In this document: positions 40,614 to 63,835 of the stretch, in pieces
Position numbering within the stretch: the first letter of the stretch is position 1
How the letters are laid out: the number at the start of each line of letters is the position of its first letter
Source: Novakomyces olei
Lineage: Eukaryota > Ascomycota > Novakomycetes > Novakomycetales > Novakomycetaceae
Assembly: GCA_016906335.1 (NCBI GenBank)
Contig: JADEYG010000003.1
Coordinates: 1,674,001 to 1,738,000, forward strand
DNA length: 64,000 bases
Reading direction: 5' to 3'
Translations under genes and position numbers: made by a program
Notes under the pieces: generated by a model
Seen by the model: only the letters and a program-made list of their open reading frames with translations
Databases searched by the model: none
Told to the model about the DNA's origin: nothing

Positions 40614-41202
40614 ACTATAGCTTAAGCAGGCGCATTTAAATAGCATTTTAACAGATAGAATCATTTGTACAACCCGTCTACAAAACAAGCTTAACAACGT
40701 TTTAGGTTTCTTGTGTCCGTCATCAAGCATCCGATGACGCCTTCCTGCTCCCAATACCGATCGGTTGCGCTGGCAGTGTTGCTTGCGAATACAGGTCGAC
40801 TTGAGCTGTTGTGTCTAGCCACCATTTAATGTATAGTATAATAATTTATAGTATGATAATTGTTGAACTATGTTGATTATTTTCCACCTGCTTTATTTTA
40901 GAGGTAGATTTTGCTTCCCAGTGCTTCTGAAAATAAACCATGTTGTTTACCATTGCAAAATCTAAAATCTGTTTAGATTGTGTTCCACTTGTGGGACATT
41001 GCGGAACTATTATTCCTCGTTTCCTTATCAATATTATTCCGCATTATCGGAGACGGACGGCTTGAGACGGCTATTGGCCAACCCCCTATGGATCTGGCAT
41101 AAATAAATATGAACAATGGTTATTCTATGCTATATTAACATGACGAGACAGTCTCGGGAACGAATTGCTTTTCGAAAAAGGCAAGAGCTTTTTGAACAAA
41201 TT
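40614..41202. other. intergenic region, no gene
   Basis: The 3' side of the FunK1 gene, grading into AT-rich repeat DNA. No coding or RNA signal recognised. Confidence 0.4.
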
Positions 41203-41831
41203 AGGGTTAGTTACTAATGGTGAAATTTAGGTAGGGTTGGGCAAAAACTTAGGGAAAATTTTTCGAGGTAGGAAATTTGAGATGCGATTCTTATGCGGAA
41301 GCTTTGTATGGAGGTTGCTACGCGTCCAGTTATTTGTTGTGTAAACAAACAATGAGCGTTGCTATAAACAATGGTTTCCTTGGCAACGTATTGCTTATAG
41401 CTTGACGAAGACGCATCGTAAGCACCATTGACGGCAAGGGTAGGGTTGTTGGATTTATAAAATATAATTATTATACAATATGGGCTGCACATATTATAGT
41501 TATCTGATAATATAATATAAATATTATAGAGAGAGCACCATAGTAATAGAGTATAATAAGAAATACGTCAGAAAAATAAGAAAAATTAAGAGTGTGTAGT
41601 CCATGTGTAGAGGTGACAAAACATCGAAAGAACAAGCGTTTTTACAAAAAGTGTATGGTTGGATAGAGGGGAGCAGTAGGAGTGTAAATATATATTTGTT
41701 TACAAGATTGGATTAGTAGGTATAAAGATATAGGGCTTTAAAGATTCATAAAAAGCTCATGATGCCCCAGGATGTATTTTATGGGTCGTGTCTATTGTAA
41801 TAATTTATTGTAAAGTAATGTATGTATAATA
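41203..41831. repeat. subtelomeric repeat, copy A
   Basis: Starts with TTAGGGTTAGTTACTAATGG and is nearly identical to 50400-51031 (copy B), differing at only a few bases. Contains GGCAAGGGTAGGGTTGTTGG and ends at GTATGTATAATAAT, where copy B runs on into minisatellite but copy A meets a retroelement fragment. Open frames in it on the minus strand are shadows of the repeat. Confidence 0.9.
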
Positions 41832-43408
41832 ATCTCCATTAACGGAAATAATTTACAACAATGTCTGGAGCTAGTGGAAGAGCGATTAAGAACATAGCTC
41901 CCGAGTTGAGAAGTCCAAGGTCGACGAGAAGAGTCTCTTCGAAAGGAGAAGGTGAAGTTGAAGGTCTAGCAGAAACACCGAGTCTTCAGAAACTAGAGGG
42001 AGACGATGATGACGATGAAAACCCATTATCCCAAGATGTTCGGGAACTGAAACAAACATTAAAGGAGCAGAGTGAAGCTATCATTGCTCTTACTCAGCTT
42101 ATGAACGAATTAACGCAAGGGCGCAATATTCAAAGCGAAGGCACGAAACACGTACCGGCCAGAGGAGAAGGTACAGTGAGTGAGGAGATGCTCAGTGCGA
42201 CCGATAGGGCCAGTGTGCGAGAGTTAGCAGCCAGTTTAGCTGAACAGCAGCTCAAATTTACCGGGCAGTACGGAGAATCTGTGTCAAAGTTTTTGAGACT
42301 AGTAAGAATGACAGCGAGAACAATGGGTGTCAGAGAGGATCTAATCCCCCGCGCGGCCTGGAGCAGGTTGAAGGGAATGGCAGAAACATGGCTACTGTCT
42401 ACCTACGAGAGACATCCAATTATTTTATCAAATATGCCAGAATTCGAGGCGGCATTGAAAGAAGACTTCATAGAGCCTGACACTCGCTATGAAAGCGAAA
42501 AGGAGCTGCATCGGCTCATTGCAAGCCGATTACCAATGCGTGAATATACAGCACGTTTTATGGATCTGATTCGCGAGTGTGATTTGGACGATGGTCCACA
42601 ATTGGCAGAAACTTATCGTGCAGGATTGCAACCATTCGTTGCACGAACTCTGAACAAAGGCTTCACAAACTTGCAAGAAATTGTGGCGGCAGCAAGTCCC
42701 TATGAGCACTTTATGGGAAACAATTACCAGTCAAATACGAAAAGGCAGACACCTAGCTATCGACGGAATGAGTACACAAGCTACAGAACAGAGCGCCCCA
42801 GAGAAGTTAGGGGATATCAAGCGAATGATAAAGGAAATAATTATTCACAGACAGACCGTTCTAAAACAATGAATCCGGCGATAACGTGCTATCAATGCGG
42901 TGAAAAAGGACACATTGCAACGGCATGTCCCGAAAGGAAAATAAAATTGTTCCAAGCTAGTCAGGACAAGCCTTCTGGACTGGGCAAAGAAGATGATCTG
43001 ACCAAGGAAGAAGAAGCGAAAATCATGAATATGGACATGGAAAACATTACGAAAATAGAGCAGCTCGAAACTATTGATATCACGTTGGATACAAACGGAC
43101 ATCCCACGTATGCGGCCGTCATAGATACAGGGGCTACGGTCAATGCTATATCAAAAAAGGTGGCATATACAACGGGGTTGGATATTATAGAAGATCCAAC
43201 TATATGGATTTCTAATATAGCGGGTTACAAAACCAAAGGCAAGTACCTAAACTTAAGGTTTAACGTTAATGATGCGAACTTTACCGCACGTTTCTACGTC
43301 ATTGACATGGGACCGGAAATTATATTGGGTATCGGATGGGTGAAAAGGTATCCAAAGTGCCTAGAGAAGATTGCAAATGGGCAGATAAATATGGTCGTTT
43401 CCGAACTT
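41832..43408 (+). mobile_element. Ty3-like element fragment (gag-protease part)
   Basis: Fossil of a Ty3-type LTR element, plus strand. From 41861 it shows a gag region with an acidic coiled N-terminal part, a zinc knuckle CYQCGEKGHIATAC, and an aspartic protease region with VIDTGATVNAI. No polymerase or integrase follows; the fragment is cut off where an LTR-like block begins. It is broken (truncated). No own 5' LTR was recognised, and it joins subtelomeric repeat copy A directly. Confidence 0.8.
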
Positions 43409-44003
43409 TGTTGTCTTTATTTAATATTGAATATTTATTTAAATATTTACTTATTATTTATTATTTATTGACTATTATTGTTCTGACTGCTTTTACTTGT
43501 TAGTTTGTTTAATCGTTTAAGTAGTTAGTGTTTCTAGAATATTCTACGTAGCGAGGATATAAATAGAGGTCCTGCTTCTACTTTTCTCGCTACGTGTAAT
43601 CGAACTTTGGGGAGACCCAATCTTTTAAACCCAGTTCTACTTAATTTCATCATAGTTGTTATAACTGGAAGTAACTCACTGTTATAACTCTTTAGATTAA
43701 TTGAATCTACTCTTAAACTATGGAAAACCTTGTCCTTTTATAGACTTCAAGGCTCAGCTCTTATCTCAGAGATAGGATCAAGACTTTCCTATCAATTAGT
43801 AATCAGATAGGATCAGAAGTAACCGATCAATTAGTAATCACCTTATCATTGATAGGTTACAGATACCCGATCAGTGGCGTGATTTAATGATTAGTAATTA
43901 AATATTCCTCCAAATCGGTTAAATTCCGTATTTGGAGTGAATTAATTTAATTTAATTATGTCATTTTAAATTTAAATTTTACTATCTACACTATGGCCTA
44001 ACA
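43409..44003 (-). repeat. LTR-like block of the older Ty3-like element
   Basis: Begins TGTTGTC and ends GGCCTAACA. Read on the minus strand it starts with TGTTAGGCC right after a purine tract GTGGGGGAGGA, as an LTR follows its polypurine tract, and has CTATAAAAGG as a TATA-like box. The left limit is less certain than the right; part of the left side could be another LTR on the plus strand, since it has its own TATAAATAG. Confidence 0.55.
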
Positions 44004-44446
44004 TCCTCCCCCACTAATTCGAATGTGTCGAATTGTAGTTGTTCAGCAGGTTGGTTGAGTTAGCCAAGTGAGATTTAGGTTCCCATGTATCGTCTTCAGG
44101 TCCATAGCCTTCCCAGCGGATTCGGTATAATAGCTTATACCCCTGTTTCGGTGTATTGGATTTTTTAGACCCTTTGAACCATCCATGGTCAACGATTTGT
44201 TGGATCAAATATAGTTCTGTGTTGTCTTTGTAGCGTCGCAGAGCTTTAGGCTTAGGTTGTTCTCTGGTGTTGTGACTGTTCATTGGATGATGTTTCTTTA
44301 ATTGAGAAATGTGAACAACGGGATGATATTTTATTGATGTTGGTAGTTCCAATTCATATGAAACAGGACTGATTTTTTGAATAATTTTGAATGGACCAAT
44401 GTATTTTGATTGTAATTTTCGTGTGAGAACATCGTGGAATAGCTCC

Positions 44447-44743
44447 TGTCAGTGCGTGTCACAGGCGAACCTCGACGCCTGAGTACAACTGCTTAATTGC
44501 ACGCCGCTTATCGTAACGGCTAGCGGGAAAAAGGAGAATACAATAGAATAATTGCACAACAGTTATATTCACTAGTTGGCTAAGCGTAAGTAAAGTAGAT
44601 ACCAGAAGGCCCTACTTATACTTCCGCTTAGCGTTCTAAATTACTAAGCAAAACTATCTAGAATATTCTATACTAAAAACTAATGCCTGCACACTAATTG
44701 CACGAGTGCAACTTCTGTGCCAGGCACATGTCAGCTCCTGACA
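44447..44743 (-). repeat. LTR of nested element (3' LTR)
   Basis: 297 bp, TGTCAG...CTGACA ends, identical by eye to 49372-49668; GCTCC flanks it on the left. Confidence 0.95.
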
Positions 44744-44821
44744 TTACCCCCCCTTCAAAGGTTAAAACGTCCTGCAATAGATGTAGTACTATGTGCAGTG
44801 TAAGGCATGTATATGTGTTTT

Positions 44822-44947
<126 letters not shown>

Positions 44948-47900
44948 TTTGCCTTTATGTATATATATATATTGTATATATATATAATACTCAAGTAATA
45001 AAGTAAGCACAATAGTATATATATATAATACTGACACATAGTATGTATATATATATATATATATGAATAATGCTCAAGTAGTAAAGTAAGCACACATAGT
45101 ATATATATATAATACTAGGGCAATAGAATAAGGACACGTATAGGTAAGAATTAAATAAGATCTAAAGAACAAATAAAGAAATACGTGAGTTCATGAGCGT
45201 AGTTTTCTGTTGTAGTCGTCTAAGGTTTCTTGCGCGTTTGTCAAGTTGGCTGCGCTTTCCCATGTTCTGTCCTCTTCATTGTAGCCTTTCCAGTGGACGA
45301 GGTAGCGTTTGCCAGCTCCTCGTCCGCGATGTCCGCATATATATTCGACCTCGTACTCTTTGAGATCGTGTATATATCCGGTACTGTAGTCTCCGTATGA
45401 TCTCTGTTAAATCGGTCGCCTTTGCTCAATTCTAATTGTGATTCGTTGAAGACATTATGTATTTGGATATTCGTAGGTAAGTCGACGCGATAAGCTGACA
45501 CGCCAATTCTTTCAACAATCTTAAATGGCCCAATTCTTTTGTGATCGAGCTTGGGACTCGGTCGGTCGCTATTGATGTATTTAGGTTGTATCCAAACAAA
45601 ATCTCCAACGCTATATTCTCGTCCGATTCGTCTCTTTCGATTGTAGTAAATTGCCATACGTTTGTTGGCTGTGTCCAGCGCTTCTCGGATTCCTTTAAAG
45701 ACCTCGTTCCAATTCTTCAAACAGTTGTCGGCAGCGGGGGTTTGTGTTTCCCTGTTGCCCACTGTAAACGTTGTGGGATGGAAGCCGTAATTTGCATAAA
45801 ATGGGGACAATTTTGTACTGGCGTTCACCGCATTATTTAAGGCAAATTCTGCAAATGGCAACAGGTCGACCCAATTGTCCTGGTTGTAGTTGGCGTAGCA
45901 TCGTAAGTACTGTTCCAAGGACTGATTCGTTCGTTCCGTTTGTCCGTTGGTCTGCGGGTGGTGACTAGTTGACTGGCATAGCTTGATTCCGAGTCCTGTA
46001 GTCAGACCCTTCCAAAAATGACTTACAAACCTCGGGTCTCTGTCGGAAATAATTTCTTTGGGCAGTCCGTGGTACCTAAACACGTGCTGTATAAACAACT
46101 GTGCGGTTCCCTGTGCTGTGATCCTAGTATCACATGGGATCAAATGGCACATTTTTGTCAAACGGTCCACAACCACTAAAATAGAATCCTGGTTCTTCGA
46201 TTTCGGTAGCTGCACTATGAAATCAATAGACACTGATTCCCACGGTTTTTCTGGTATTTGCAGGGAATGCAATTCTCCTGACGGTGATCTTCTCGGTACT
46301 TTATTTCTCTTGCAGGTGGGGCACCCCTGTATATAATCCTCCACGTCCTTTCGTAGGCCTGGCCATTCATAGTGGCGTTTGATTAACTCCAATGTTCGCG
46401 ACGATCCGAAGTGTCCCGCCAGCGGGTGATCGTGGTGGTCGCTCAATATCCTTTTTCTCTCTTCTTCAGTGGGTACAGTGCTTGTTGCTGCTTCCAACTG
46501 ATTCACGAATATCTCGGGTTTTAGTAATATCTGCTCCTGGTGTTTTCGGTATGGTTCTGTAGATAAGTCGTTCAAATCTGGTCTCCGGCTAAGTGCGTCG
46601 GCTGCACCGTTAAATTGCCCCTTGCGGTATGTAATATTAATGTCATAGTCGGCAAGCAGTTCCGACCATCGGGCTTGCCGCCTAGTGAGCTGTTTCGTGG
46701 TAGTAAAGGGGATTAAATTCTTGTGGTCCGTATAGATCAATGTTGGCTGTTTTTGCCCTTGTACGTAGTGTCTCCATGTTCTAAGGGCCCAGATAATGGC
46801 TAGCAGCTCTTTATCATGAATATCATAGTTTATTTCGGCCATGCTCAGCTTTCGGCTGATAAATGATATTGGCTTGAGTCCTTCAGGAGTAATTTGCGTG
46901 AGCACTGCTCCCAGCGCAAAATCGGAAGCATCTGTCTCGATGATGCATTGCTTCTCGGGGTCGTAGTGGTCCAATAGAACGTTCTTTTCAAATTGCAATT
47001 TTAGTGTACGAAACGCATCTTCTTGCACAGTCGTCCATTCAAATGGTTTGTTCTTTGATAAAAGAGCCGTGAGTGGTCGTGCTAGCTTCGAGAATCCTTG
47101 TATGAAGCGTCTGTAATAGTTACAAAGTCCCAAGAAACTCTGTACGTCGTGGATTGATTTCAACTTCGGCCATTTGCGGATTGTTTCTGTTTTATCTTGG
47201 CTCATACTAACTCCCTTAGTCGATATTGCATAGCCCAAAAATTCAACCTGTTCTTTGTGAAACTCACACTTTTCTCCCTTGACACAAAGTCCTCGCCTTT
47301 GAAGTCGTCCCAGCACTTCTTTGACGTCTTCGGTATGTTCCTCCAATGACTTTGAGTAAATAAGAACATCGTCCAGGTAAACTAGGACCTTTCGGTCTAG
47401 GATATCGCGGAACACATCGTTCATCAAATCCTGGAAGGTGGCCGGCGCATTAGTCAATCCAAAGGGCATTACTAAATACTCAAAGTGTCCGAAACGCGTC
47501 CGAAACGCTGTTTTCCACTCGTCGCCACGCTTTATCCTCACCAAGTTATACGCTCCTCTCAAATCGAGTTTTGTAAAATACTGAGATCCTGCGATCTTGT
47601 CGATTAGGTCATCGATTCTTGGTAACGGATACTTGTTTTTGATTGTAATCGCATTCAATTGGCGATAATCCACGCAAAGTCTCAGACTTCCGTCCTTCTT
47701 TTTAACGAATAGTATCGGGGCCCCAGCAGGTGATTTAGACCTGCGTATGAATCCTCTCGCAAGATTCTTTTCAATGTATTCTCTCAGTTCTTCTTGTTCT
47801 TCGTGGCTAATGCTGTAAATTGGCCCAAAGGGTATCTGGGCTCCTTCGACCAGCCTTATCTCGTGGTCGTATAATCCATGTTCAGGAAGCGAATCTGCCT

Positions 47901-49371
47901 TTTCTTTAGCAAATATTTCCTTGTAGTCCTTGTATTCTTCCGGGATATCGTCTTGCTTTTCTCTTGTTTCCGTAAGATTTATTTCCAACATCTCCTCTGT
48001 ACTTTCGTCCTCTTTGAACGACATTGCTCCTTTTCTCCAATCAATCGAAGGGTTGTTGTCGTGCAACCACTGTATACCAAGAATGATATCATGACGCCCG
48101 ATATCGGCCATGTAGAATTTTGTAGGCATAAGACGGTCGTCTATTATCAAAGAAAGGTCTCCCGTTGTAAGTATGACAGGTCCTCCTGGCAATGGCCGTC
48201 CGTCCACCACCTGTACAAAGATTGGCTCTTTGATTTGCTTCATGTCGATGTTTAGTTTATTGACAACCCGCGGGTTAATAAAGTTCAGGTGTGCACCAGA
48301 GTCCACCAATGCTCTGAAACTTATTCCGCACAGTTCGGCTGTCACCTCAATTTGTTTGTTGTCCTTTCTGATGGGTTTCTCGTCATTTGTGCCCAATGCA
48401 GCCATCTCCTGGATTAGGCGTTTGCTTTTTCCGAGTCGTCCCTTGTTTCAAATTTCTTCGTTGTTCCAGTCCGCGTCTCTTCGCGGCAATGCTTTGCTAT
48501 ATGCCCCTTTTTGTGGCATCTATAGCACTCGACAGGCTTTTCGTGCTTGAACTTTCTCTCGCCGTCTCTTGACAATGTCGGTGTTCTCATAACGTCGATT
48601 TCCATTGGCATCTCTCTTGTTCCCGGCGATGGTTCTCTTCTGTAGATTCTGGCTCGGTCGCGGTTTCTCTCAAACAGCCTGTTGTCGATTCTAATGCTCA
48701 CATCGACAAGGGCTTTCAAATCTCTAGGCGATTCTGCTCGTGCCAGTTCATCCTTGACACTGTCCTTAAGGCCCTCATAATACTGCGCTGCTAGAGCCTC
48801 GTCGTTCCACGCAAGAAAGGCGCTCAGTCTTTCAAATTCAGCTGCATAATGCGATGCTGAGCTTTTTTGTTTCAACTGCCTAAGCTGTCTCTGTGCCGTT
48901 CGCTTCATGTCTCTATCTCCGAACATGCGTTGTAGCTCGTTGCAAAACAGCGAAAAATCGTCGAGTAGTTCTCCATCCTCTCGCAAAATATGCGGCTCCC
49001 ACCAACGAAAAGCGGCCCCACGCAAGTACGATGCTGCAAACAGAACCTTTTGTCTCTCGGTCGTGTATCTTTCTCTCTGCACATCGGTTATCATTTTCGT
49101 CTGCATGATAAATTCATTCAGTTTCCCTCGCTCTCCGGAAAATAATGGCGGAGGCGCCATCTTCGGCTCGCGGCCGGCAGACACACGTGTGCTGTTCTCA
49201 TCACTAGTCACTCTTGCTAGTCTCTCCGTCAGCGCTGTGTTCTTTTGTTCCAAGAACTTCAGCCTGTCGGTCACTTGTGAGCAAAACTTTTGTAACTCCT
49301 CCATACTCGCGGGGTCCATCGTTCCCACCGTAAATGTTCTTCCTAGTCCCACTAAAACGGACGCTTAGCAC

Positions 49372-49668
49372 TGTCAGTGCGTGTCACAGGCGAACCTCGA
49401 CGCCTGAGTACAACTGCTTAATTGCACGCCGCTTATCGTAACGGCTAGCGGGAAAAAGGAGAATACAATAGAATAATTGCACAACAGTTATATTCACTAG
49501 TTGGCTAAGCGTAAGTAAAGTAGATACCAGAAGGCCCTACTTATACTTCCGCTTAGCGTTCTAAATTACTAAGCAAAACTATCTAGAATATTCTATACTA
49601 AAAACTAATGCCTGCACACTAATTGCACGAGTGCAACTTCTGTGCCAGGCACATGTCAGCTCCTGACA
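49372..49668 (-). repeat. LTR of nested element (5' LTR)
   Basis: 297 bp, followed on the right by GCTCC, the target duplication. Same sequence as 44447-44743. Confidence 0.95.
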
Positions 49669-50383
49669 GCTCCGGTATTTCTCGTATGTTGGCTGTGCTT
49701 AAATAAGCCAGGTCATTAACATTATATTCAACATTTATTCGCTTTTTATCCGCATAGATTTTTGATAAATCATGTGCTGTTCTGATAGCATCTTGACAAA
49801 GAATTTTGTTGGCCTCCAGAGTGTTTATAAAAGAGGAAGTATCTTTGTTCGGTGTTTCGGGCATTGATAAGTCAGTAAGACTACGTGGAATGTAGCCAAG
49901 ATCCGCCTCAAAGGGTGTCATTGATATGGCGGAGTGTTGGCTTGAAGAGTAAAAGAATTCGGCAAACGATAATAATGTGTGCCAGCTGAAGTTCTTTTTA
50001 TTGGCATAAATGAAAAGACGAAGATAGTCTTCCAATACACGATTTGTGCGTTCGGTTTGACCGTTGGACTGTGGGTGATAGCTTGATGATGGCTTCAGTT
50101 TGATTTGAAGAGTTTTTGTAAGTGTCTGCCAAAATTCAGACATAAATCTTACATCTCTGTCACTTATTATTGCAGTTGGTAAGCCGTGTAGACAGAAATT
50201 CTTTCCAGAAATAGCTGTGCAGTTCCTTGTGCTGTTATAGTTGTGTGCGTGGGCCAGAAATGAGCTCTTTTGGTTAGACGATCAACTATGCAAATTATAG
50301 CATCAAACTTTCGAGTCCCCGAAGCTGGTAGTCCAGTGATAAAGTCCATGCCTATTGTTTGCCATCGATTACTCGGTATATCG

Positions 50384-50410
50384 AGTTAGGGTTAGTTAGG
50401 GTTAGGGTTA
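50384..50410. repeat. interstitial telomere-like tract at a junction
   Basis: GTTAGGGTTAGTTAGGGTTA continuing to GGGTTACTAATGG. It lies exactly where the broken retroelement stops and subtelomeric repeat copy B starts. Confidence 0.85.
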
Positions 50411-51031
50411 CTAATGGTGAAATTTAGGTAGGGTTGGGCAAAAACTTGGGGAAAATTTTTCGAGGTAGAAAATTTGAAATGCGATTCTTATACGGAAGCT
50501 TTGTATGGAGGTTGCTACGCGTCCAGTTATTTGTTGTGTAAACAAATAATGAGCGTTGCTATAAACAATGGTTTCCTTGGCAACGTATTGCTTATAGCTT
50601 GACGAAGACGCATCGTAAGCACCATTGACGGCAAGGGTAGGGTTGTTGGATTTATAAAATATAATTATTATACAATATGGGCTGCACATATTATAGTTAT
50701 CTGATAATATAATATAAATATTATAGAGAGAGCACCATAGTAATAGAGTATAATAAGAAATACGTCAGAAAAATAAGAAAAATTAAGAGTGTGTTGTCCA
50801 TGTGTAGAGGTGACAAAAAATCGAAAGAACAAGCGTTTTTACAAAAAGTATATGGTTGGAAAGAGGGGAGCAGTAGGAGTGTAAATATATATTTGTTTAC
50901 AAGATTGGATTAGTAGGTATAAAGATATAGGGCTTTAAAGATTCATAAAAAGCTCATGATGCCCCAGGATGTATTTTATGGGTCGTGTCTATTGTAATAA
51001 TTTATTGTAAAGTAATGTATGTATAATAATG
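50400..51031. repeat. subtelomeric repeat, copy B
   Basis: Direct copy of 41203-41831 with a few base differences. Unlike copy A it continues to the right into GTATG/ATAATAAT minisatellite, which is probably the natural arrangement. A partial third copy begins near 51209 (GGCAAGGGTAGGGTTGTTGG) and runs to about 51365. Confidence 0.9.
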
Positions 51032-52110
51032 TATGGCAGAGTAATATATGGTATAATAATCTATTGTAAAGTAATGTATGTATAATAATGTATGGTATAA
51101 TAATGCATTGTAATATAATGTATTGTATAGTAATGTATGTATAATAATGTATGGTATTATATTGTATTGTAAAGTAATGTATGTATAATAACACCTGCAT
51201 ATGTGATTGACGGCAAGGGTAGGGTTGTTGGATTTATAAATATAACATTGCTACACAAGATGGCCTGCATATATTATAGTAATGAGATAATATAATGATA
51301 GTATTAAAGAAAGAGCAACTAGATATTAGGAATGAGAATAACATTATAAAAATTGAGAAAAATTAAGTATATTAAAATAATGTATTATAATTTATTGTAA
51401 AGTAATGTATGTTATAAGGTAGAATAATGTACTGTAAAGTAATGTATGTATAATAATGTATGGTGGAATAATGTATGGAGGAATGTATTTATAATAATGT
51501 ATGTATAATAATGTATGGTGGAATAATGTATGGAGGAATATTGTATGGAGTAGTGTATAATAATATATGGCAGTATAATGTATGGACGAACAATGTATGG
51601 AGAAATAATGTAAGGAATGATAATGTGTGTTATAATAATGTGTGGTAGTATAATAATGTATAAGGCAGTTATTATAAGGCAGTTATTATATGGCAGTAGT
51701 TATTATAAGGCAGTTATTATAAGCAGTTATTATATGGCGGTTATTTGGCAGTTAATGTATGGGATCATAATGTATGTGGAATTAATAAGGCAGTTATTAT
51801 AAGGCAGTAGTTATTATAAGGCAGTTATTATAAGTAGTTATTATATGGCGGTTATTTGGCAGTTAATGTATGGGATAATAATGTATGTGGAATTAATAAG
51901 GCAGTTATTATAGGGCAGTTATTATAAGGCAGTTATTACATGGCGGTTATTTAGTAGTTAATTTATGGGATAATAATGTATGTGGAAGTAATATATGGAG
52001 GAATGGAAAGTATGGGATGATCATTATATCGCAGCTAATATATTGCGGTTTATTACACGGCAGTTGGTTATATAGCAGTTGCTACAAGAATAGCTATAAT
52101 TGCGTGATGT
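51032..52110. repeat. AT-rich subtelomeric minisatellite (ATAATGTATG family)
   Basis: Degenerate tandem units such as GTATGTATAATAATGTATGG, then AAGGCAGTTATTAT units from about 51655. A unit of about 110 bp (AAGGCAGTTATTAT...GTATGTGGAATTA) occurs about three times between 51660 and 51985. No gene. Confidence 0.85.
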
Positions 52111-52862: not shown

Positions 52863-53822
52863 TAAAATATTATATAAAAAAAATTTGTATGGTACAGTAT
52901 CATATAGCGGTAAATGTATGGTATAATGTATGGGAATAGGCCAGCTAATATATGGCGGTTTATTATATTGACGTAGGCTTTGTTTATGCGGAGCTATTCT
53001 GACAATAAAAGTCGCATTTAGTAGAATTCAATTCAATTAAAACTATCCGAAGCAAAGTACATTTAGTTGTATTAAGCTAAGTCGTGTTAGTTAGAGAAGT
53101 TTAAACTTAGATCTTCGTTAAATGCGCGTAGGCGTGTTAGCCAAATCGTAAGCTTGTAGTCGCTGAAGGATGGAATTGGGGCATCATTCAGGCGGCTATA
53201 ACATGTTTTATCACTAAATAAAGAAAGATCAGACACAAAGGCATTGATACTGCTCATATCTGAGTGGCTTGCAACAGGCCCATACCAGTTAATTTTCTCA
53301 ACTGCCGCTACGTTTTGTTCTCCATTTTTCTTTTTCCGGGATGCAGCCAATGTATTATTGTCATATTGCGGAATTATCCATAGATATCTCGCCGCAGTTA
53401 TTGGCAAACGATCCATAAACATTTCAGCCCACACTGAACCAGCCTGAATTTTAAGAATATTATAAAGCTGTCTTGAAAGCACAACAAATCGCTCCTTGTC
53501 CCACGTAGCGCTTCCTCTCGTACGCCAATCAAATAACCCCTTCAGTTTACCGGTCCAAAGCATATTTTCGGGCGTGAGCTCTTTTCGAGAAACTCGTGAC
53601 TCTATCACACGAGGTAAAAATCCAAGCGCTTGCTGTATGGTTTTACAATCCATCCCAATTCGACCCTCGGCCATGTACTGACTATTCTCCGTATATGGCA
53701 AACAGTAATTGTCTTTCTTGGCTCTATCGTGAATTAAACGCCATATGTCGGCCATGTATTGTCCAATCACCATTTCGTGACAGATCTTCAACACTTTGGC
53801 ACGTTTTGTAGTTAGTGCACAG

Positions 53823-54214
53823 TGTTACGGTGCGCTATATGAGGCGCTAGCTAGCGCTGAAGATAGCGCTTTTACATCCTTTAATTTGTTTTGTTTCACT
53901 TTATTTTGTGTTACGACTTCTATTTTTAATTAGTTCTATTTATAACTCTTAGCTTCTATTTTTAGATAGCAACTTAGTTAGTTTAATTAGTTTAGTTTGA
54001 TTAGTTTCTCGGGCAAAGCCCCACGGAGCGTCATAAGAATGGGACACTCCCCTCTTATGTTCGCTACGTGTAATCAAATCTTGGTGTGCAATATTTTGGT
54101 TTTCTATTACTAGGTTCCCTACTTTCCACGTATCCTCAACAGAGCCAGCGTGAGATCTGGCATATTCACCTTATTGCACCTTTACGACTTTTTGGAAGTA
54201 AAGCCCCCATAACA
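53823..54214 (+). repeat. 5' LTR of the JmjC-bearing element
   Basis: 392 bp, TGTTACGG...CCATAACA ends, preceded by CACAG. Contains GCTACGTGTAATC, also present in the older LTR-like block near 43590, so the two families are related. Confidence 0.95.
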
Positions 54215-57200
54215 GTATTACACGTCCACGATTCTGATTCGAGGATACAACGATGTCGGCAGCGGATTTTGAGCAGTTGAATAGGTTTCTTGAGCAAACC
54301 ACAGCGCGTTTGGAACGGCTGGAGAAAGAGAACCGCACTCTCGCTGACCAACTCGGTATCGCTAAGGGAACCGTGCAGGAACGAGGGTCGAAGGAGCCTA
54401 AAATGGCACCACCACCATTCTTTTCCGGCGAACGCTCGAAAACTGGTGAATTTTTGACCTGCGTGAGGATGATTATTGGCAGTCAACCAGATCGCTATCG
54501 CTCGGCGCGACAGCAAGTGATGTTTGCGGCGTCTTACCTTCGCGGAGCGGCTTTCAGATGGTTTGAGCCTCATGTGAGAAACGAAAATGAAGTTATTCTC
54601 GACGATTTTGATTGTTTTTGTGACACGCTCGAGAGGATGTTCGGAGACCGGGACGTCAAACGAACAGCAGAGCGAAGTATCCGTCTCTTGAGACAGAGAG
54701 GATCTGTATCTCAGTATGCGACTGAGTTTGAAAGATTGAAATCTTGGCTAACCTGGAACAATGATGCATTAGTTGCTCAGTTCTACGATGGGTTGAAAGA
54801 GAATATCAAAGATGAGTTGTCAAGGAGAGAAATGCCTGAACTTTTGGGCACCTTGATTGATGAATATGTGAAGATCGATGGCCGTTTGTTCGAGAGAAAC
54901 AAGGCTAGACAGCGATTTAGTTACAGTGAAAGGGAGTATGCAAGACCTCTGCATTGTGGAAGTACACCGATGGAGATTGACAATCTGATGACAAGACGGA
55001 TTGATGACGAAGAGACAAGCGTTAATTATGACGCTACCAAACGCCGATACTCGCGCCCGCAACAAACTGATACAAGAAACTATGGCGCTAAGTATGGCGC
55101 TATGGAGCGCAGTTCAAAGCCAAACCAGAGCAAGGACGTTACCTGCTATCGGTGCTACGAGAAGGGACATGTGTCCAAGAATTGCCAAGCGCCTTTTCCA
55201 AAGCAGTCGTTTACGAATGGAAATGTGCCAAGCAAGAAAGTACATGATTTAAAAGATCGGACCTAGAGACCGAGGTGGTGTCGCTAGGTGGTATTGAGCG
55301 AAAGCCACCAGATAAGAAACTGTCAAGCGGAAAGCTTGAAGTGTTATGCAAATTTGAAGAAAAGGAATTGCACGCTTTGCTAGATAGCGGTGCAGACGCA
55401 AATTTTATACATCCAAGAGTGATATGGCGTCTAAAGATTGAGACAAAGAGACTAGAGAGTCCTATTTTTGTGAAAGTAGCCGATGGCCGAGCAATGGCAT
55501 CTGGTCTAGTACGAAGAACGACCAAGGATATACCTATTGAAGTGCAAGGTATTAGGTCGACTGAGATTTTTTATGTGGCGCAAATTGGACACCATGATGC
55601 GATCTTAGGTATCCCATGGTTGACCAAGAACAATCCCAATATTGATTGGATTACAGGACGCCTGACGTTACGACAGCCTACGCTGGAATCTATTGAACTT
55701 AACAGTATAAACGAGATTATTCAAGACAGCGAGGATGACTGTCAGATTGGAAACGAGAAAATTGAATTGCCTCCAGAATATGAGGAGTTCAGAGATGTTT
55801 ATGAAGAACCAAAGAACGACGTGCTACCACCGCATCGATCGTACGACCACGAGATTGAACTACTGAAGGACGCAAAAATACCTTTTGGTCCCGTTTACAG
55901 TGTTAATCAGAAAGAACAAGAATACCTACGCGAGTACTTAAATGAGAACCTCGCGAAGGGATTTATTAAACGCTCTAAGTCACCGGCAGGAGCACCAGTG
56001 CTATTTGTGCCGAAGAAGAATGGAGAATTGAGATTATGTGTCGACTATCGGGGACTGAATAATATTACTATCAAAAACAAGTATCCAATTCCCCGGATTG
56101 ACGATTTGATCGACAAGCTAGCCGGAGCCAAGATCATGACAAAGATCGACTTGAGAGGTGCCTACAACTTGATAAGAATCAAAAAAGGTGATGAATGGAA
56201 AACAGCCTTTAGGACAAGATATGGCCACTTCGAATATCGCGTCATGCCCTTTGGACTGACGAACGCACCCGCGACATTTCAAGCTCTCATGAACGATGTG
56301 TTTAGAGACTTGCTTGATTACAAAGTTTTAGTATATCTTGATGATATTCTAATATTTTCAAAGGACAAAGAAACGCACGTGAAAGATGTTCAGGAAGTAC
56401 TACGACGCCTAAGAGCCAACCAGTTGTATGCAAAAGGCGAAAAATGCGAGTTTCATCGCACCAAAGTTGAATTTCTCGGCTTTATATTATCTACAGATGG
56501 AATATCAATGTGTGAAGAGAAACGAGATCCCATTCTGACTTGGGAAAGACCAAAATCAGTCCACGATGTTCAAGTGTTTCTTGGATTTTGCAATTATTAC
56601 CGAAGGTTTATCAAAGACTTTGCAAAGCTAGCGCTGCCGCTAACGCAGGCGCTACGAAAGAATAAAACATTCGAATGGACTGAAAGGCAACAAGGAAGTT
56701 TCGATGACTTAAAGAGTTGTTTTAAGAAAGACGTTATGTTGCGACATTATGACCCGTCAATGGAATGTATCCTAGAGACAGACGCTTCAGACTTTGCGCT
56801 GGGCGCTGCTTTGACGCAAGGACCAGAAGACCACCGTCGACCTGTGGCATTTATCAGTAGGAAGCTCACACCGGCCGAAGTGAACTACGATATCCACGAT
56901 AAGGAATTACTCGCAATTGTTTGGGCATTCAAAACCTGGAGACATTACCTCCAAGGTCACCCAAACCCAATAGTTGTCTACACGGATCATCGAAACCTAC
57001 AAACATTCAGAACTACAAAGCAATTGTCTCGAAGACAAGCAAGATGGTCTGAGATTCTGGCCGAATACGATTTTATTATAAGTTACCGAAAAGGAGCTGC
57101 TAATGGAGCCGCTGATGCCCTTAGTCGATGCTCCTCTCTAAACGATTTAAAGACTAATACATACGAACAAGAGCAAAACAGGATATTGCTCCCCGATGAG

Positions 57201-58883
57201 AAATTTACAGATACAAATTTGGAATTGAATGCGGCTGAGACGTTGGCCAACCAATTGCCAGAAGGAGTTTTAAAGGACTTTGTACCAGAAGAAAACAGAA
57301 AGGAAGTCCTGGCCAACGCACACGATCACCCGCTAGCTGGGCATTTTGGTGTAGCTAAGACTTTGGCTCTTGTGCAAAGACACTATACTTGGCCTGGAGT
57401 TGTCAGAGACGTTACTGACTACGTGAAAGCTTGTACTACTTGCAAAAGAAACAAAGTGAGTCGCCAAAAGAAAACAGGATTGTTGAACCCTTTGCCTACT
57501 GCCTCACGACCATGGATTTCTGTGTCGCTCGATTTTATTGTCAAATTACCAGAGTCCCAAGGGTACGACAGTATTCTTGTTGTGGTGGATCGATTCTCAA
57601 AAATGGTTCATCTTATCGCCTGCAAGGAAACAATTGACGCAAAAAGTTTGGCTAATTTGTTTCTTCGTGAAATTGTTCGACTACACGGTCTACCAGACGA
57701 AATTATATCAGACCGCGATCCAAGATTCGTCAGTAAATTTTGGACCTGCCTTACAGCGCAACTTGGCATAAAATTACACAAGTCTACGAGTCATCATCCA
57801 CAGTCAGATGGACAAACAGAAAGGATGAATCAGACTTTGGAACAGTATTTGAGATGCTACTTGAATTATTTACAAAACAACTGGATTCATTTGTTACCAT
57901 TTGCCGAAATCGCAATGAACAACTCTACGAGTGCAACTACGAAAGCCTCGGCTTATTTTACAAACTATGGATTTCAACCACGTTTTACGCTGACTCCTAC
58001 AATATCGGAGAATCCCTCAGCGAACAGTGTCGTTCAGGACTGGAACGAACATTTTAAAAGAATTATGGAAATGATTACGAAAAACTCTGAAAACATGAAA
58101 CGTTTTTACGACCGCAGAGTACGTCAGGGACCACAGTATCAATCTGGAGATTTAGTATGGATACGCAAGAAACACATCAGAAGCGATCGCCCCAGTGATA
58201 AATTTGATCACACTCATATAGGACCATTCAAAGTTCTCGAATCCGTTGGACGATCGGCTTACCGCATCGAATTACCGCACCACATAAAGATTCACAATGT
58301 GCTTAACGAGACTTTACTTGAGCCCTTTGTACCGGACCGATTCAACCGTGATCCAACTGATCAGATCGTACCAGATGTCCTACAAGAAGTTAATGAATAC
58401 GAAGTGGACTATATTGTTGATCACAAAGGAAGAGGCAAGAATATCCGTTACCTGGTTCACTGGAAAAACTACCCAGTGGAAGACCGAACATGGGAGCCAT
58501 ACACAAACCTCTCACAAGCACAAGGTGCTGTGTCCGACTATCATTCGCGACTTACCGATAGCGTTAACACTCGCGCTACAGAGCGCCATATATAACGCCC
58601 ACTATTCTATTATTTTATTATTATTCTTATCCGCACTATTATTACTATTATTCTTATTATCTCTTATTATGAGGATTATCATTTATTATGGAATTACTTA
58701 AATTCTTCTTACTATATGTTAGCGAAAATATACACAGCTTATATTTCGTTATAACAGATTTAATATATTATTAACTATGGTGCTTGCAACATTACTTATT
58801 GTCCTTATCCTCTGGGCGGGATCTTCGTTAAAAATATTTTCACGGCGCTACACACACGGTTACAGAACCCAATATCTAACGCG

Positions 58884-59885
58884 ATGACGGAGCTCACGCG
58901 TCCGAGAGAGGAGAGTGGCGAAGAGCCCAGTGGTCGGAAGCGCAGACAGCGCAACGGAGGTTCCTTTAGATGCGAAGTGTGCGATCAGCCCTTCTACTTC
59001 GCAAAGGATTTGAGAAAACACGAACGGTTGTTCCATTCGATCAACCTTACGGAAATCATCAATGGGTGGAAGAAGAATGCAGATCTGGCTGTCAACTACG
59101 ATATCGGTTTATTGGCTTTAAAACGCGCTTTCGAATCTCCGCATCAACTAATCGAAGTGGAGAAACAGGACCCGAAATTAACTATAGATCAGATCAATGA
59201 AGTGCTTCTGAAGGAGAGACAGTGTATTCTAATGAAAACTTATGCACGAACGGCCGATCCAGATCTGACAGTGACAAACTTTGTGACTAGCCTTATCGAC
59301 AGTACAAAGGAGAAGATTGCTATCTACAACATCAGTGGCGGAAACGAGCTTGTTCGGCCAGACAAGAGGCATGTTGGAATCTCGGATTTTTGGCTACACG
59401 CGATAACGCCCGCGTCTACCATCACCGACGTGCATGTGGACAACGTATTGCTCGGGCATACAATTTATTGTTTATCCGGGAAAAAGCTATTGCTTCTGTG
59501 GCCTGGTTCTGACTACAATCTGACACAGTTTGCCCCATACCATCGGGTAGGTGGAGATTTATACCTACCAAAGGCTATCAAGGAATTGCGCGATTTGAAA
59601 TTGGCTATATTGGAGACGGGGGATTTTGTCATACTTCCGGCGGGGTCACTTCATGCGGTGATCACCATTGAGACCTCGGTGATTACCGGTTATATGTTTG
59701 TGGACAAGTGCGCCGATTGGCAAAGACTAGCGTTTTGGGACGCGAAAGCTGCTCGCGATGATGATGCGGTGGCCGCAGTTTTTACGGAGCACCAGGAGGC
59801 CTTGGAGCTGCTATCCTCGTGCAACCTGCTCACCCCAAATATCGAAGAAAAGGTCAAGGCAGGAATTGAATATCTCGAGTCTTGA
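58884..59885 (+). CDS. element-borne C2H2 zinc finger plus JmjC/cupin-type oxygenase
   Basis: Protein of 333 aa in the position after pol, inside the young LTR element. Residues 18-23 are basic (RKRRQR), a possible nuclear signal. Residues 30-51 form a C2H2 finger (C30, C33, H46, H51; CEVCDQPF). From about residue 140 the sequence resembles a JmjC/cupin fold: HVD (H184, D186) as iron ligands, LSGKKLLLLWPG as the following strands with a Lys, then ETGDFVILPAGSLHAV with distal H257 and SVITGYMF. JmjC enzymes use iron and 2-oxoglutarate to hydroxylate or demethylate proteins, often histones. The gene ends ten bases before the 3' LTR, so it belongs to the element. Activity and target are inference; it could also be a non-histone hydroxylase. 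Confidence 0.8.
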   Translation: MTELTRPREESGEEPSGRKRRQRNGGSFRCEVCDQPFYFAKDLRKHERLFHSINLTEIINGWKKNADLAVNYDIGLLALKRAFESPHQLIEVEKQDPKLTIDQINEVLLKERQCILMKTYARTADPDLTVTNFVTSLIDSTKEKIAIYNISGGNELVRPDKRHVGISDFWLHAITPASTITDVHVDNVLLGHTIYCLSGKKLLLLWPGSDYNLTQFAPYHRVGGDLYLPKAIKELRDLKLAILETGDFVILPAGSLHAVITIETSVITGYMFVDKCADWQRLAFWDAKAARDDDAVAAVFTEHQEALELLSSCNLLTPNIEEKVKAGIEYLES

Positions 59886-59895
59886 GGCGGGGTAG

Positions 59896-60287
59896 TGTTA
59901 CGGTGCGCTATATGAGGCGCTAGCTAGCGCTGAAGATAGCGCTTTTACATCCTTTAATTTGTTTTGTTTCACTTTATTTTGTGTTACGACTTCTATTTTT
60001 AATTAGTTCTATTTATAACTCTTAGCTTCTATTTTTAGATAGCAACTTAGTTAGTTTAATTAGTTTAGTTTGATTAGTTTCTCGGGCAAAGCCCCACGGA
60101 GCGTCATAAGAATGGGACACTCCCCTCTTATGTTCGCTACGTGTAATCAAATCTTGGTGTGCAATATTTTGGTTTTCTATTACTAGGTTCCCTACTTTCC
60201 ACGTATCCTCAACAGAGCCAGCGTGAGATCTGGCATATTCACCTTATTGCACCTTTACGACTTTTTGGAAGTAAAGCCCCCATAACA
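59896..60287 (+). repeat. 3' LTR of the JmjC-bearing element
   Basis: 392 bp, identical by eye to 53823-54214, followed by CACAG. Confidence 0.95.
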
Positions 60288-62423
60288 CACAGTCTCTCAA
60301 ATCATTTTCCGTTTCAACTATTGGCCCCTTAATCAAATCGACCAAATACTTATCCCGATTTGCTCTGTAATCCAGAACTCGTATAATGTCTGTATTTCCC
60401 TTCAACTTCTTCTGTAAAGCCGACGTTACAAACGGCAAGCGAGGCAACAACACTGGCTTGAACATGAGCAAACCTGCTTCTATCAAGTCGCTGTCCAGAA
60501 ATGCTAAACTTGCCTCCGATAATGACTCTTTCAAGTTGAGTCCATTGTAAGTAAGGCGGTTATTCCTTCGACGAAATTCTTTTAAATAAATATCAGAATA
60601 TTTAGTAGCATCTTCACTGGCCAGGAAAATGGACAGTATTCTCACATACGCTGTTAAAAGTGGTCCCCTAAGCAATTGAGTGACTTTTTCATCATTGCTC
60701 ATACTAGCGATGGCTTCTATGGGCATCATCAATCGGCTGATTTCAGCCTCCAAGAAATCCGCCAAAACTTCGGTTTTTACTCTGTAATAGCTGGAGGGAC
60801 ATGGAACTTCAGATTCTGATTCCAATGTCTCCAATACAGAGTAGTCGTCTAAGCTGAAGTCTAGTATTTTATCATATGTTATTCTAAACTCTCTTCTCAC
60901 ACCAAAACTTGACTTTTTTGAAGCCGTGAGGCTTTCACAAATCCTCTGCTTTGTGGCAACGTACGCTGAGACGACAGAATTTCGAGACAGTGGCTTTCCA
61001 AAGCGACTATTTTCAGCATGGAACTCGCTGAACATGTCATTTGACATGTATAGAGACTCGAAATGAGGCAGTCCGAACGACCTATGGCCTTTCTTAGGAG
61101 TAGTAATAACATCTTTAAAGCTGTTATAAGCTTTCAATTGGGCGAGTCCAGTAGACTGCCGTAAAACACATCGGATATTTGTAACTGCGTCCACCGAGCC
61201 AGCTTCGCCCAAAAAATAAAAAGGATAATATTGGAAGCCATAGCGTGATGCAGCTGGCCGTGGGCTCAAGGTAGATGAAAGGAAACCAATCAAAGGATCT
61301 TTTTTATACAAAAGAGTAGTCGGCTCATCGGAATCCGGGACATCTTCAACTCCAATATCAATGAATATGTCTGAGGCCTTAATTTTATTGTCGTTCCCGT
61401 CACGACTCCAATTGATCATCTCACTCAACTTTTCATCAAATCGCATAATAGTATCATAAAGACTCTTCGTCTTGTACGACAACTTTGTGTCGTGAGCTTC
61501 ACAAATTATAAATGGATCCTTAAATTTGGAGAGGTCGGGGTCTGTTGAGTCTAACAATTGTAGAATTTCGTTCCACAAACGGTCGAAATAGATGTTTTTG
61601 AGATAAGCACCGTTTGGAAAGGCCGACAGTGATCCAGGCGACTCTTCCCTCGCTACTTTCGACTTGTAAAGGGCTTCCTCAAAGCTTCTGGGCATATGCT
61701 GCAGAACATCCCAAGGAAGAACCCTTTTACAAGCCGGAAGCAATATTTTATTAATCCAAACTGCCATTTCATCGTTGGTTGGGTACACCTCCGTCGATTG
61801 TTTAGCCCGCACAGACCCAAAGCAAACCTTGACCCACGTTCCTCGAACATTATTCGCGACAGCCAAACGGATAAAGTAGAAATGCTTGTAAGCACTTGGG
61901 TTCCGACCCAGCGGCCTGACATGGAGCTGCTGGTTTTTGACCGACAGAAAGGGGATGTAAAAATGTAAAACTCCATCTTGTTTGAAACTTCCGAGATTGG
62001 AACTTCCAATGATAAGACTGTCGATGTCATAAACACGACGAATATTAACATCTTCTAAAGAGCCTTTTTCTAAAGTTATCGAGTGTCTTTTGTCCCCATG
62101 ACAACCGGTAAGCAGCCTTTCCCAATCCACCGCGTCTTCTCCAAACTCAGAGATACAGGGCTGAAATATTGGCCATTGGGTTTTATCCATAATATTTTTA
62201 AGCCAGACAGCATGAAGCTCTATAGGACACTGCCCAATTTGGGTGTTAATGTCACTCGTCACATTGTACTGAATACCCTAGATATATTCAAACCGGAATT
62301 ATGGCGAAATTCCATTTTTATGTAATGTGATTCTTATTATGTATAATTCTAGTCAGGGTTTTCGCTTTTCCTTTACGCCATAATTCCATTTCGAAAAATA
62401 ATTAATGTATGAGGGGGGGGTCA

Positions 62424-62640: not shown

Positions 62641-63060
62641 ACCATATTGCGGCGAGGGTAGGGTTGCTGAATTTATAAAATATAATTATTATACAAGATG
62701 GTCTACACATATTATAGCTATCTGATAATATAATAAAAATATTATAGAGAGAGCCCCATAGTAATAAAGTATAATAAGAAAAACGTCAGAAAAATAAGAA
62801 AAATTAAGAGTGTGTAGTCCATGTGTAGAGGTGACAAAACGTCGAATGAACAAGTGTTTTTACAAAAAGTGTATGGTTGGATAGAGGGGTGCAGTAGGAG
62901 TGTAAATATATACTTGTTTACAAGATTGGATTAGTAATTATGGAGATATATGGGTTTAAAGATTTATAAAAAGCTCATGACGGCGCAGGATGCATTTTAT
63001 GTGGCATTATAATAATGTATAGTAGAATAATTTATTGTAAAGCAATGTATGTATAATAAT
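62641..63060. repeat. subtelomeric repeat, diverged copy C
   Basis: Matches copies A and B from GGCGAGGGTAGGGTTG onward (AAATTAAGAGTGTGTAGTCC, TTTACAAGATTGGATTAGTA), with more differences, and leads into ATAATGTATG minisatellite as copy B does. Confidence 0.85.
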
Positions 63061-63835
63061 GTATAGTATAATAATGTATGGTAATTTAATGTATAGGAAT
63101 AATGTATGTATAATAATGTATGGTATAATAATGTATGGTATAATAATATATGGTAGAATAATGTATTGTAAAGTTATTGTAAAGTAATGTATGTATAATA
63201 ATGTATGGTAGAATAATGTATTGTAAAGTTATTGTAAAGTAATGTATGTATAATAATGTATGGAGGAATATATAGGAATAATGTATGTATAATAATGTAT
63301 GGTATAATAATGTATGGTATAATAATATATGGTAGAATAATGTATTGTAAAGTTATTGTAAAGTAATGTATGTATAATAATGTATGGAGGAATAATGTAT
63401 GGAGGAATAATGTATGTATAATAATGTGTGGTATAATAATATATGGTAAAATAATGTATTGTAAAGTGAATAATGTATGTATAATAATGTATGGTATAAT
63501 AATGTATTGTAAAGTAAAGTATGTATAATAATGTATGGTAAATAATATATGGTAGAATAATGTATTGTAAAGTTATTGTAAAGTAATGTATGTATAATAA
63601 TATATGGTAGAATCATATGGTATAATAATATATGGCATTATAATGTATGGTATAATAATATATGGTGGAATAATGTATGGAGGAATAATGTATGTATAAT
63701 AATGTATGGTATAATAATATATGGGGGATTAATGTATGGGAATAATGTATGGGGAATTAATGTATGGGGGATTAATGTATGGAGAATAATGTGTATGGGG
63801 GAATAATGTATGGGGGAATAATGTACGGTGATATT
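63000..63835. repeat. AT-rich subtelomeric minisatellite, second block
   Basis: Units such as GTATGTATAATAATGTATGG and GAATAATGTATTGTAAAGTT in tandem with many variants, same family as 51032-52110. No gene; open frames on the minus strand are repeat artefacts. Confidence 0.85.

Follow-up and report, generated by a model that had tools for sequence, protein, structure and literature searches.

Element-encoded measures against silencing are known in relation to DNA methylation (VANC), and epigenetic enzymes are known in retroelements (DNMTs, AlkB), whereas a gene of the histone-demethylase type within an LTR element was not found in the literature searched, a body of work outside whose scope most subscription journals fall. 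Here, we describe such a candidate, termed ORF3, in Ty3/chromovirus elements of the fungus Novakomyces olei. The nearest precedent in kind is a set of orchid (Phalaenopsis) Ty3/Gypsy elements of approx. 25 kb, which, according to the part of the report available, carry an AlkB-type 2-ODD ORF with RNA m6A as the substrate (PMC9289625). The combination of a Ty3 element with an extra Fe/2OG oxygenase ORF that may remove a methyl mark is common to both cases; however, the orchid elements are large plant elements with an AlkB gene directed at RNA, whereas those considered here are fungal chromoviruses of approx. 6.5 kb with a JmjC-like gene.

The nearest known systems in idea are retrotransposons with DNMT genes and VANC. 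The former occur in dinoflagellates and charophytes and carry a cytosine methyltransferase, as described in the accessible portion of the source (PMC5890265). An epigenetic enzyme taken into a retrotransposon is thus shared with N. olei, but the enzyme is a methyltransferase there, whereas here it is an eraser-type domain in a host whose genome yields no DNA methyltransferase match. In Arabidopsis, VANDAL elements encode VANC, which, as far as the available excerpts go, counters silencing of related copies (PMC5735166, PMC10398659); these elements are MULE DNA transposons, and the effect is a loss of DNA methylation (PMC13317346, likewise in excerpt). For ORF3, in contrast, the anti-silencing effect is putative. 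VANC proteins have, to our knowledge, no oxygenase fold.

At the level of the protein itself, ORF3 resembles the KDM2/KDM7 demethylases (e.g., KDM2A and PHF8), with which it shares a T-H-D-K-H JmjC core of near-identical spacing. The fungal relatives of KDM2/KDM7 are of the Jhd1/Epe1 type. Unlike these demethylases, ORF3 is borne by a retrotransposon, has an N-terminal C2H2 finger and, over the seven families examined, yields no match to the CXXC, F-box or Jumonji helical domains. At the level of the element, fungal chromoviruses of the Tf1 and Maggy types have in common with the element studied here gag, a pol with SH3_Tf2-1 and a chromodomain, and a 5-bp target-site duplication (TSD), but the latter adds an oxygenase-like gene between pol and the 3' LTR. 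The accessible part of a fungal survey mentions a dUTPase and one additional ORF whose function is not known, and no JmjC gene (PMC2864245). The terms JmjC, Jumonji and demethylase do not occur in the available text of PMC5890265, PMC13317346 (plant gene capture) and PMC6338049 (accessory domains), and 'histone' and 'demethylase' are absent from that of a review of plant extra ORFs (PMC7264820). The initial annotation knew of no described Ty3 element with a zinc finger-JmjC gene beside the chromodomain; for this particular combination the literature searched does not contradict it, but a Ty3 element with an AlkB gene, as seen in the sections available, is already in print (PMC9289625).

A complete chromovirus insertion with an extra gene

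The window, i.e., the whole stretch of 64,000 nucleotides that was analysed, contains at 53823-60287 a complete Ty3/chromovirus insertion of approx. 6.5 kb (Table 1), as judged by an LTR pair, a TSD of 5 bp (4-6 bp being expected), gag, the PR-RT-RH-IN order and a chromodomain. When the flanks are joined with one TSD copy kept, a single stop-to-stop frame of 906 aa appears on the minus strand, and for this reason the interval can be regarded as the whole insertion, with ORF3 inside it; since the joined flanks stay open over 906 aa, the element was inserted into an open frame. The initial annotation had proposed a full extra frame between pol and the 3' LTR that lies within the element rather than in flanking DNA, with its stop ten bases before the LTR and a chromodomain at the end of pol. 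All of this is borne out: the 333-aa frame is present, exactly ten bases separate its stop codon from the 3' LTR, the LTRs are identical with CACAG on both sides, and the chromodomain is recognised by PF00385. Inspection of the spacer between pol and ORF3 by eye for a shared promoter or splice signal revealed none.

Table 1. Features of the Novakomyces olei element and its target-site duplication (positions in the window)
Feature	Position	Strand	Basis
Target-site duplication CACAG, 5' copy	53818..53822	+	sequence
5' LTR, 392 bp, TGTTAC...ATAACA (TG...CA ends)	53823..54214	+	identical to 3' LTR
gag	54253..55266	+	Retrotrans_gag E 7.8e-14; zinc knuckle below the cut-off
pol: protease, RT, RNase H, integrase, SH3_Tf2-1, chromodomain	55275..58595	+	Pfam domains
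Chromodomain at pol end, residues 1042-1092	58398..58550	+	PF00385 E 2.2e-13
A+T-rich spacer, pol to ORF3	58596..58883	+	read by eye
ORF3, 333 aa: basic patch, one C2H2 finger, predicted KDM2/7-like JmjC domain	58884..59885	+	
C2H2 zinc finger of ORF3	58965..59036	+	C30 C33 H46 H51, invariant in 7/7 ORF3 families
Predicted JmjC core of ORF3, residues 175-270	59406..59693	+	T181, H184, D186, K201, H257 invariant, 7/7 families
Purine-rich tract overlapping ORF3 stop codon	59884..59892	+	by eye
3' LTR, 392 bp	59896..60287	+	identical to 5' LTR
Target-site duplication CACAG, 3' copy	60288..60292	+	sequence

The open frame that the element splits lies near the contig end in two pieces (53087-53822 and 60288-62262, minus strand), neither of which matches a Pfam family at E <= 0.01. 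A related Ty3 element, X, is located at 44446-49668 (minus strand); its 298-bp LTRs are 100% identical, and it has neither a chromodomain nor an ORF3 match. X is apparently nested in another Ty3-like element (41201-51030 overall), which is delimited by a repeat pair at 41201-41833 and 50396-51030 (98%) and includes a gag-protease ORF at 41861-43471. Degenerate A+T-rich tandem repeats are common to 62998-63833, at the contig end, and 50990-51660, beside the nested retroelements. A contig end (L021, positions 1-120) carries a telomere-like array whose repeat unit has 10 bases, CTAACCCTAA (TTAGGGTTAG on the opposite strand).

ORF3 families and their history with pol

The N. olei genome (14.34 Mb) contains 46 places that match ORF3, 21 of which stay open, with no internal stop, over at least 278 of the 333 residues; this is more openness than chance would give. 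For family analysis, 20 stretches of up to 10 kb around ORF3 matches were taken, and the long ORF3s, together with that of the window, sort into at least seven families, A to G. Pairwise identity among these families is 25-42% for ORF3 and 57-69% for pol (in the pairwise table of gag, pol and ORF3, families D and F lost their gag rows and X its ORF3 row because coverage was below 40%, and every pol row was kept). LTR pairs enclose gag, pol and ORF3 in 13 copies, including that of the window, which belong to families A, B, C, E and G, and in all five families ORF3 occupies the same slot between pol and the 3' LTR. A perfect 5-bp TSD flanks nine of the 13 (for one copy, L027, ATATG was read by eye); L014 and L028 are bounded by LTRs without a TSD, and families D and F showed no LTR pair within the stretches of up to 10 kb. 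Two family-A copies on contig C2 (L009 and L010), in opposite orientation and approx. 4.6 kb apart, have swapped flanking pentamers (CACTG and GTCTT), a pattern that an inversion involving both copies would leave behind.

These observations, i.e., the LTRs, the TSD, the joined empty-site frame and the seven families, reject the view that ORF3 is a passenger or a flanking host gene. A further candidate, L016 (C1:342829-344622), was considered as an intron-bearing host relative or source gene and rejected: it is a decayed family-A copy followed by an A-type LTR (88%), and its ORF3 (L016 5800-8200) carries two insertions and no longer has the original residue as its first iron ligand. In five ORF3 pairs, dN is 0.62-0.92 and dS is 2.24 or undefined; with dS saturated, pairwise dN/dS ratios say little about selection.

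Trees built with IQ-TREE from pol (eight tips) and from ORF3 (seven tips) have an identical topology for the seven shared families, ((A,B),(C,F)) against ((D,G),E), out of 945 possible unrooted seven-tip trees. In the ORF3 tree, the support is 99/97 for DG, 98/97 for CF and 88/90 for AB, and it is weak for the deep split (78/79). Each family is represented by one row, and for E and G the ORF3 and pol rows come from different copies. The simplest reading of this agreement is that ORF3 was acquired once, before families A-G diverged, and was then passed on with pol. The gene is not restricted to one copy, a circumstance that the initial annotation had named as counting against its proposal. We regard ORF3 as an accessory gene that a Ty3/chromovirus lineage of N. 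olei has carried for a long time.

Among the pol matches listed, which give lower bounds (42 of 173 candidates were scored), a same-strand ORF3 match lies at most 1.5 kb downstream of 19 of the 26 pols with at least 58% identity to the window pol, and within 1.5 kb downstream of none of the 16 pols at 49-56%, the nearest being 2,445 bases away. The seven pols of the closer group without a nearby ORF3 are X, an A copy on C9 whose two halves are counted separately, two partial pols (C7:1739631 and C3:5632), C2:1682386 and C7:6602. X, an intact element whose pol is 55-59% identical to the A-G pols, is a natural control for the families that bear ORF3. At C2:1682386-1685595 (58%; 2.06 kb from the contig end) and C7:6602-9196 (62%), the pol match extends through the chromodomain and there is no downstream ORF3 match; these could be further families without ORF3 or carriers of a more diverged one. 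A chromodomain is present in all seven ORF3 families, and over the eight families of the pol tree both features are present in seven and absent together in one (X), a weak co-occurrence because there is only one absent case and because C2:1682386 and C7:6602 point the opposite way. The chromodomain does not need ORF3: none of the 16 distant pol matches has an ORF3 match within 1.5 kb, and neither do these two loci, where the pol match includes the chromodomain.

Relationship of ORF3 to KDM2/KDM7 proteins

Taken alone, the window ORF3 matches zf-C2H2 (E 0.0013) and Cupin_8 (E 0.04), both of them under the Pfam cut-offs, and since single-sequence matches remain sub-threshold the motifs are not provable from this copy. 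The profile of the seven families makes the domain identity clear. A C2H2 finger followed by a JmjC-type domain had been anticipated in the initial annotation, together with a profile search (zf-C2H2, JmjC and Cupin_8), and the seven-family profile and the invariant ligands substantiate this proposal and narrow it to the KDM2/KDM7 branch. Over the seven families, 30 of the 333 positions are invariant, among them all ten metal or co-factor positions that were checked: the four zinc ligands, N149, T181, H184, D186, K201 and H257. By analogy with JmjC enzymes, we take the HxD...H residues to be the iron ligands and K and T to bind 2OG. The T-H-D-K-H spacing is exact in all seven families (D at H+2, K at H+17 and H at H+73); a count by eye along the aligned KDM2A chain places K at +17 and the last H at +72.

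Compared with the PDB, the whole-ORF3 profile finds zinc fingers first, with KDM2/7 proteins among the matches. The profile without the finger finds 15 sequences at E <= 10, of which the top 12 are all chains of KDM2A, a KDM7 homologue, KDM7A and PHF8 (E 7e-6 to 0.006), matches that are not independent because the 12 sequences represent four proteins; the 13th is a plain cupin (E 0.0075). The KDM2/7 match spans approx. 100 residues, and the alignment upstream of it is not significant (score -2.6). A comparison within the host leads in the same direction. Five of the six host places with a JmjC domain (PF02373) were compared with ORF3, the sixth (L042), a short piece, being left out. With hhalign, L040 is matched at 96.4% (E 1.2e-9; approx. 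26% identity over 100 residues), and L039, L041, L037 and L038 at 26.7%, 27%, 0.1% and 0.2%, respectively. L040 is itself of the KDM2/7 type, with a JmjC and a Jumonji helical domain and a match to KDM2A at E 1.9e-66. It is thus well supported, at the level of sequence comparison, that ORF3 contains an Fe(II)/2-oxoglutarate oxygenase domain of the JmjC type that belongs to the KDM2/KDM7 branch, and by the PDB profile and the five host proteins it appears closest to KDM2/7 among JmjC proteins.

PF02373 is absent for the seven ORF3 members at E <= 1 (the HMMER filters drop most matches above 0.1), and a search of the genome with this model picks up none of the ORF3 places while the six host places pass; the single ORF3s of the seven members yield weak cupin matches and no JmjC model, and none reaches the Pfam cut-off for a JmjC or cupin family. 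AlkB (2OG-FeII_Oxy_2) is absent among the 11 Pfam families listed for them at E <= 1, and no env family occurs among their Pfam matches. The KDM2/7 accessory domains PHD, CXXC, F-box and JHD are not found in the ORF3s at E <= 0.01, with a weak PHD_P300 match (0.029) in one. In a protein collection, no ORF3 relatives were obtained with one sequence, the seven-family alignment or, at E <= 1, the JmjC part, a weak negative as the fungal JmjC content of the collection is without a control, and of 24 pattern matches in viral contigs none was confirmed.

Possible role in histone-methylation silencing

The host genome contains one Pre-SET, one chromo-shadow and one Piwi match, and no DNA_methylase match in a search that was positive in 10 of 14 control genomes; these searches were made in six frames, in which split exons can be missed. 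Such a domain content would be in keeping with silencing that relies on H3K9me/HP1 and small RNAs but not on 5mC. The Ty3 pols are clustered: for 30 of 39 places the next pol is at most 30 kb away, as against a mean of 7.3 and a maximum of 20 in 2000 random draws, and 13 of the 39 are no more than 70 kb from a contig end, where 3.0 would be expected. The test comprised 39 of the 42 main pol matches, on six contigs of known length and with families lacking ORF3 included (three on C5 and C12 were left out); a further 25 pol matches are other pieces of pols already counted. On most of the six contigs there is one main internal group in addition to the ends, with two small groups on C2 and a loose one on C4. 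Judged by clustering alone, this distribution looks like pericentromere plus subtelomere.

Within this context, ORF3 is most likely a KDM2/7-type oxygenase that demethylates histone H3 and thereby counters the histone-methyl silencing of the element, a reading to which we assign a probability of approx. 0.55. What we infer for ORF3, i.e., its substrate, role and catalysis, its targeting to the element's own copies and the benefit to the element, may be outlined as follows. The integrase chromodomain would bring new copies into methylated heterochromatin, and ORF3, encoded by the same element, would enter the nucleus; the protein is small and, from its basic patch and single C2H2 finger, probably nuclear. 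The finger would keep it close to DNA or chromatin, where it could strip methyl groups from H3 at or near the element's own copies (K9 as the first and K36 as the second choice), and silencing might be eased enough for these copies to remain transcribable. More tentatively, and at somewhat less than even odds, the chromovirus lineage might pair a reader (chromodomain) with an eraser (ORF3) in order to inhabit, and be transcribed from, H3K9-methylated chromatin in a fungus apparently without DNA methylation.

Other roles have to be weighed against demethylation of H3. ORF3 might be a JmjC-type hydroxylase of a non-histone target (Gag, integrase, RNA or a host protein) that aids replication rather than access to chromatin. 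JmjC proteins include hydroxylases with non-histone substrates, and the weak cupin matches of the single ORF3s, without a JmjC model, would agree with such an activity. So would the 2-oxoglutarate oxygenase of the orchid Ty3 elements, for which the available part of the report gives RNA demethylase activity in vitro (PMC9289625). However, the PDB profile and the host comparison favour KDM2/7 over the four other host JmjC proteins, and we regard a non-histone target as unlikely.

It is also conceivable that ORF3 works mainly by binding, in the manner of fission-yeast Epe1, its JmjC fold and finger recruiting or displacing chromatin factors with little or no demethylation. Effects of Epe1 that are independent of catalysis have been reported. 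According to the parts of the sources available, Epe1 limits H3K9me heterochromatin and acts via the HP1 homologue Swi6 (PMC6576747, PMC7613290). Nonetheless, all seven families retain every Fe and 2OG residue that was checked, residues of which a pure scaffold would have no need, and the accessible text of PMC6576747 describes JmjC-mediated demethylation of H3K9me by Epe1, which favours the demethylase reading; a role of the binding type thus seems quite improbable. We consider it very unlikely that ORF3 acts at integration instead of relieving silencing at resident copies, either by opening target chromatin or by altering targeting together with the chromodomain: the chromodomain accompanies ORF3 in every family and X lacks both, and Ty3 insertions cluster and nest, but ORF3 is a separate frame that is not fused to integrase, and chromodomain pols without a nearby ORF3 match also exist. 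Finally, retroelements do capture host sequence, but a captured host gene fragment or passenger with no function for the element can be treated as refuted, given seven divergent families (25-42% identity) that retain all ten checked positions, the dN and dS values above, the agreement of the pol and ORF3 trees and 21 long open copies.

If demethylation of H3 by ORF3 is correct, these elements would offer, with the advantage of a small fungal genome, a natural and self-contained setting in which the reading and erasing of a histone mark can be tested, and a direct test of how one element can target heterochromatin yet escape silencing there. The Ty3 families that bear ORF3 may thus be equipped with a means of countering silencing at their own copies.
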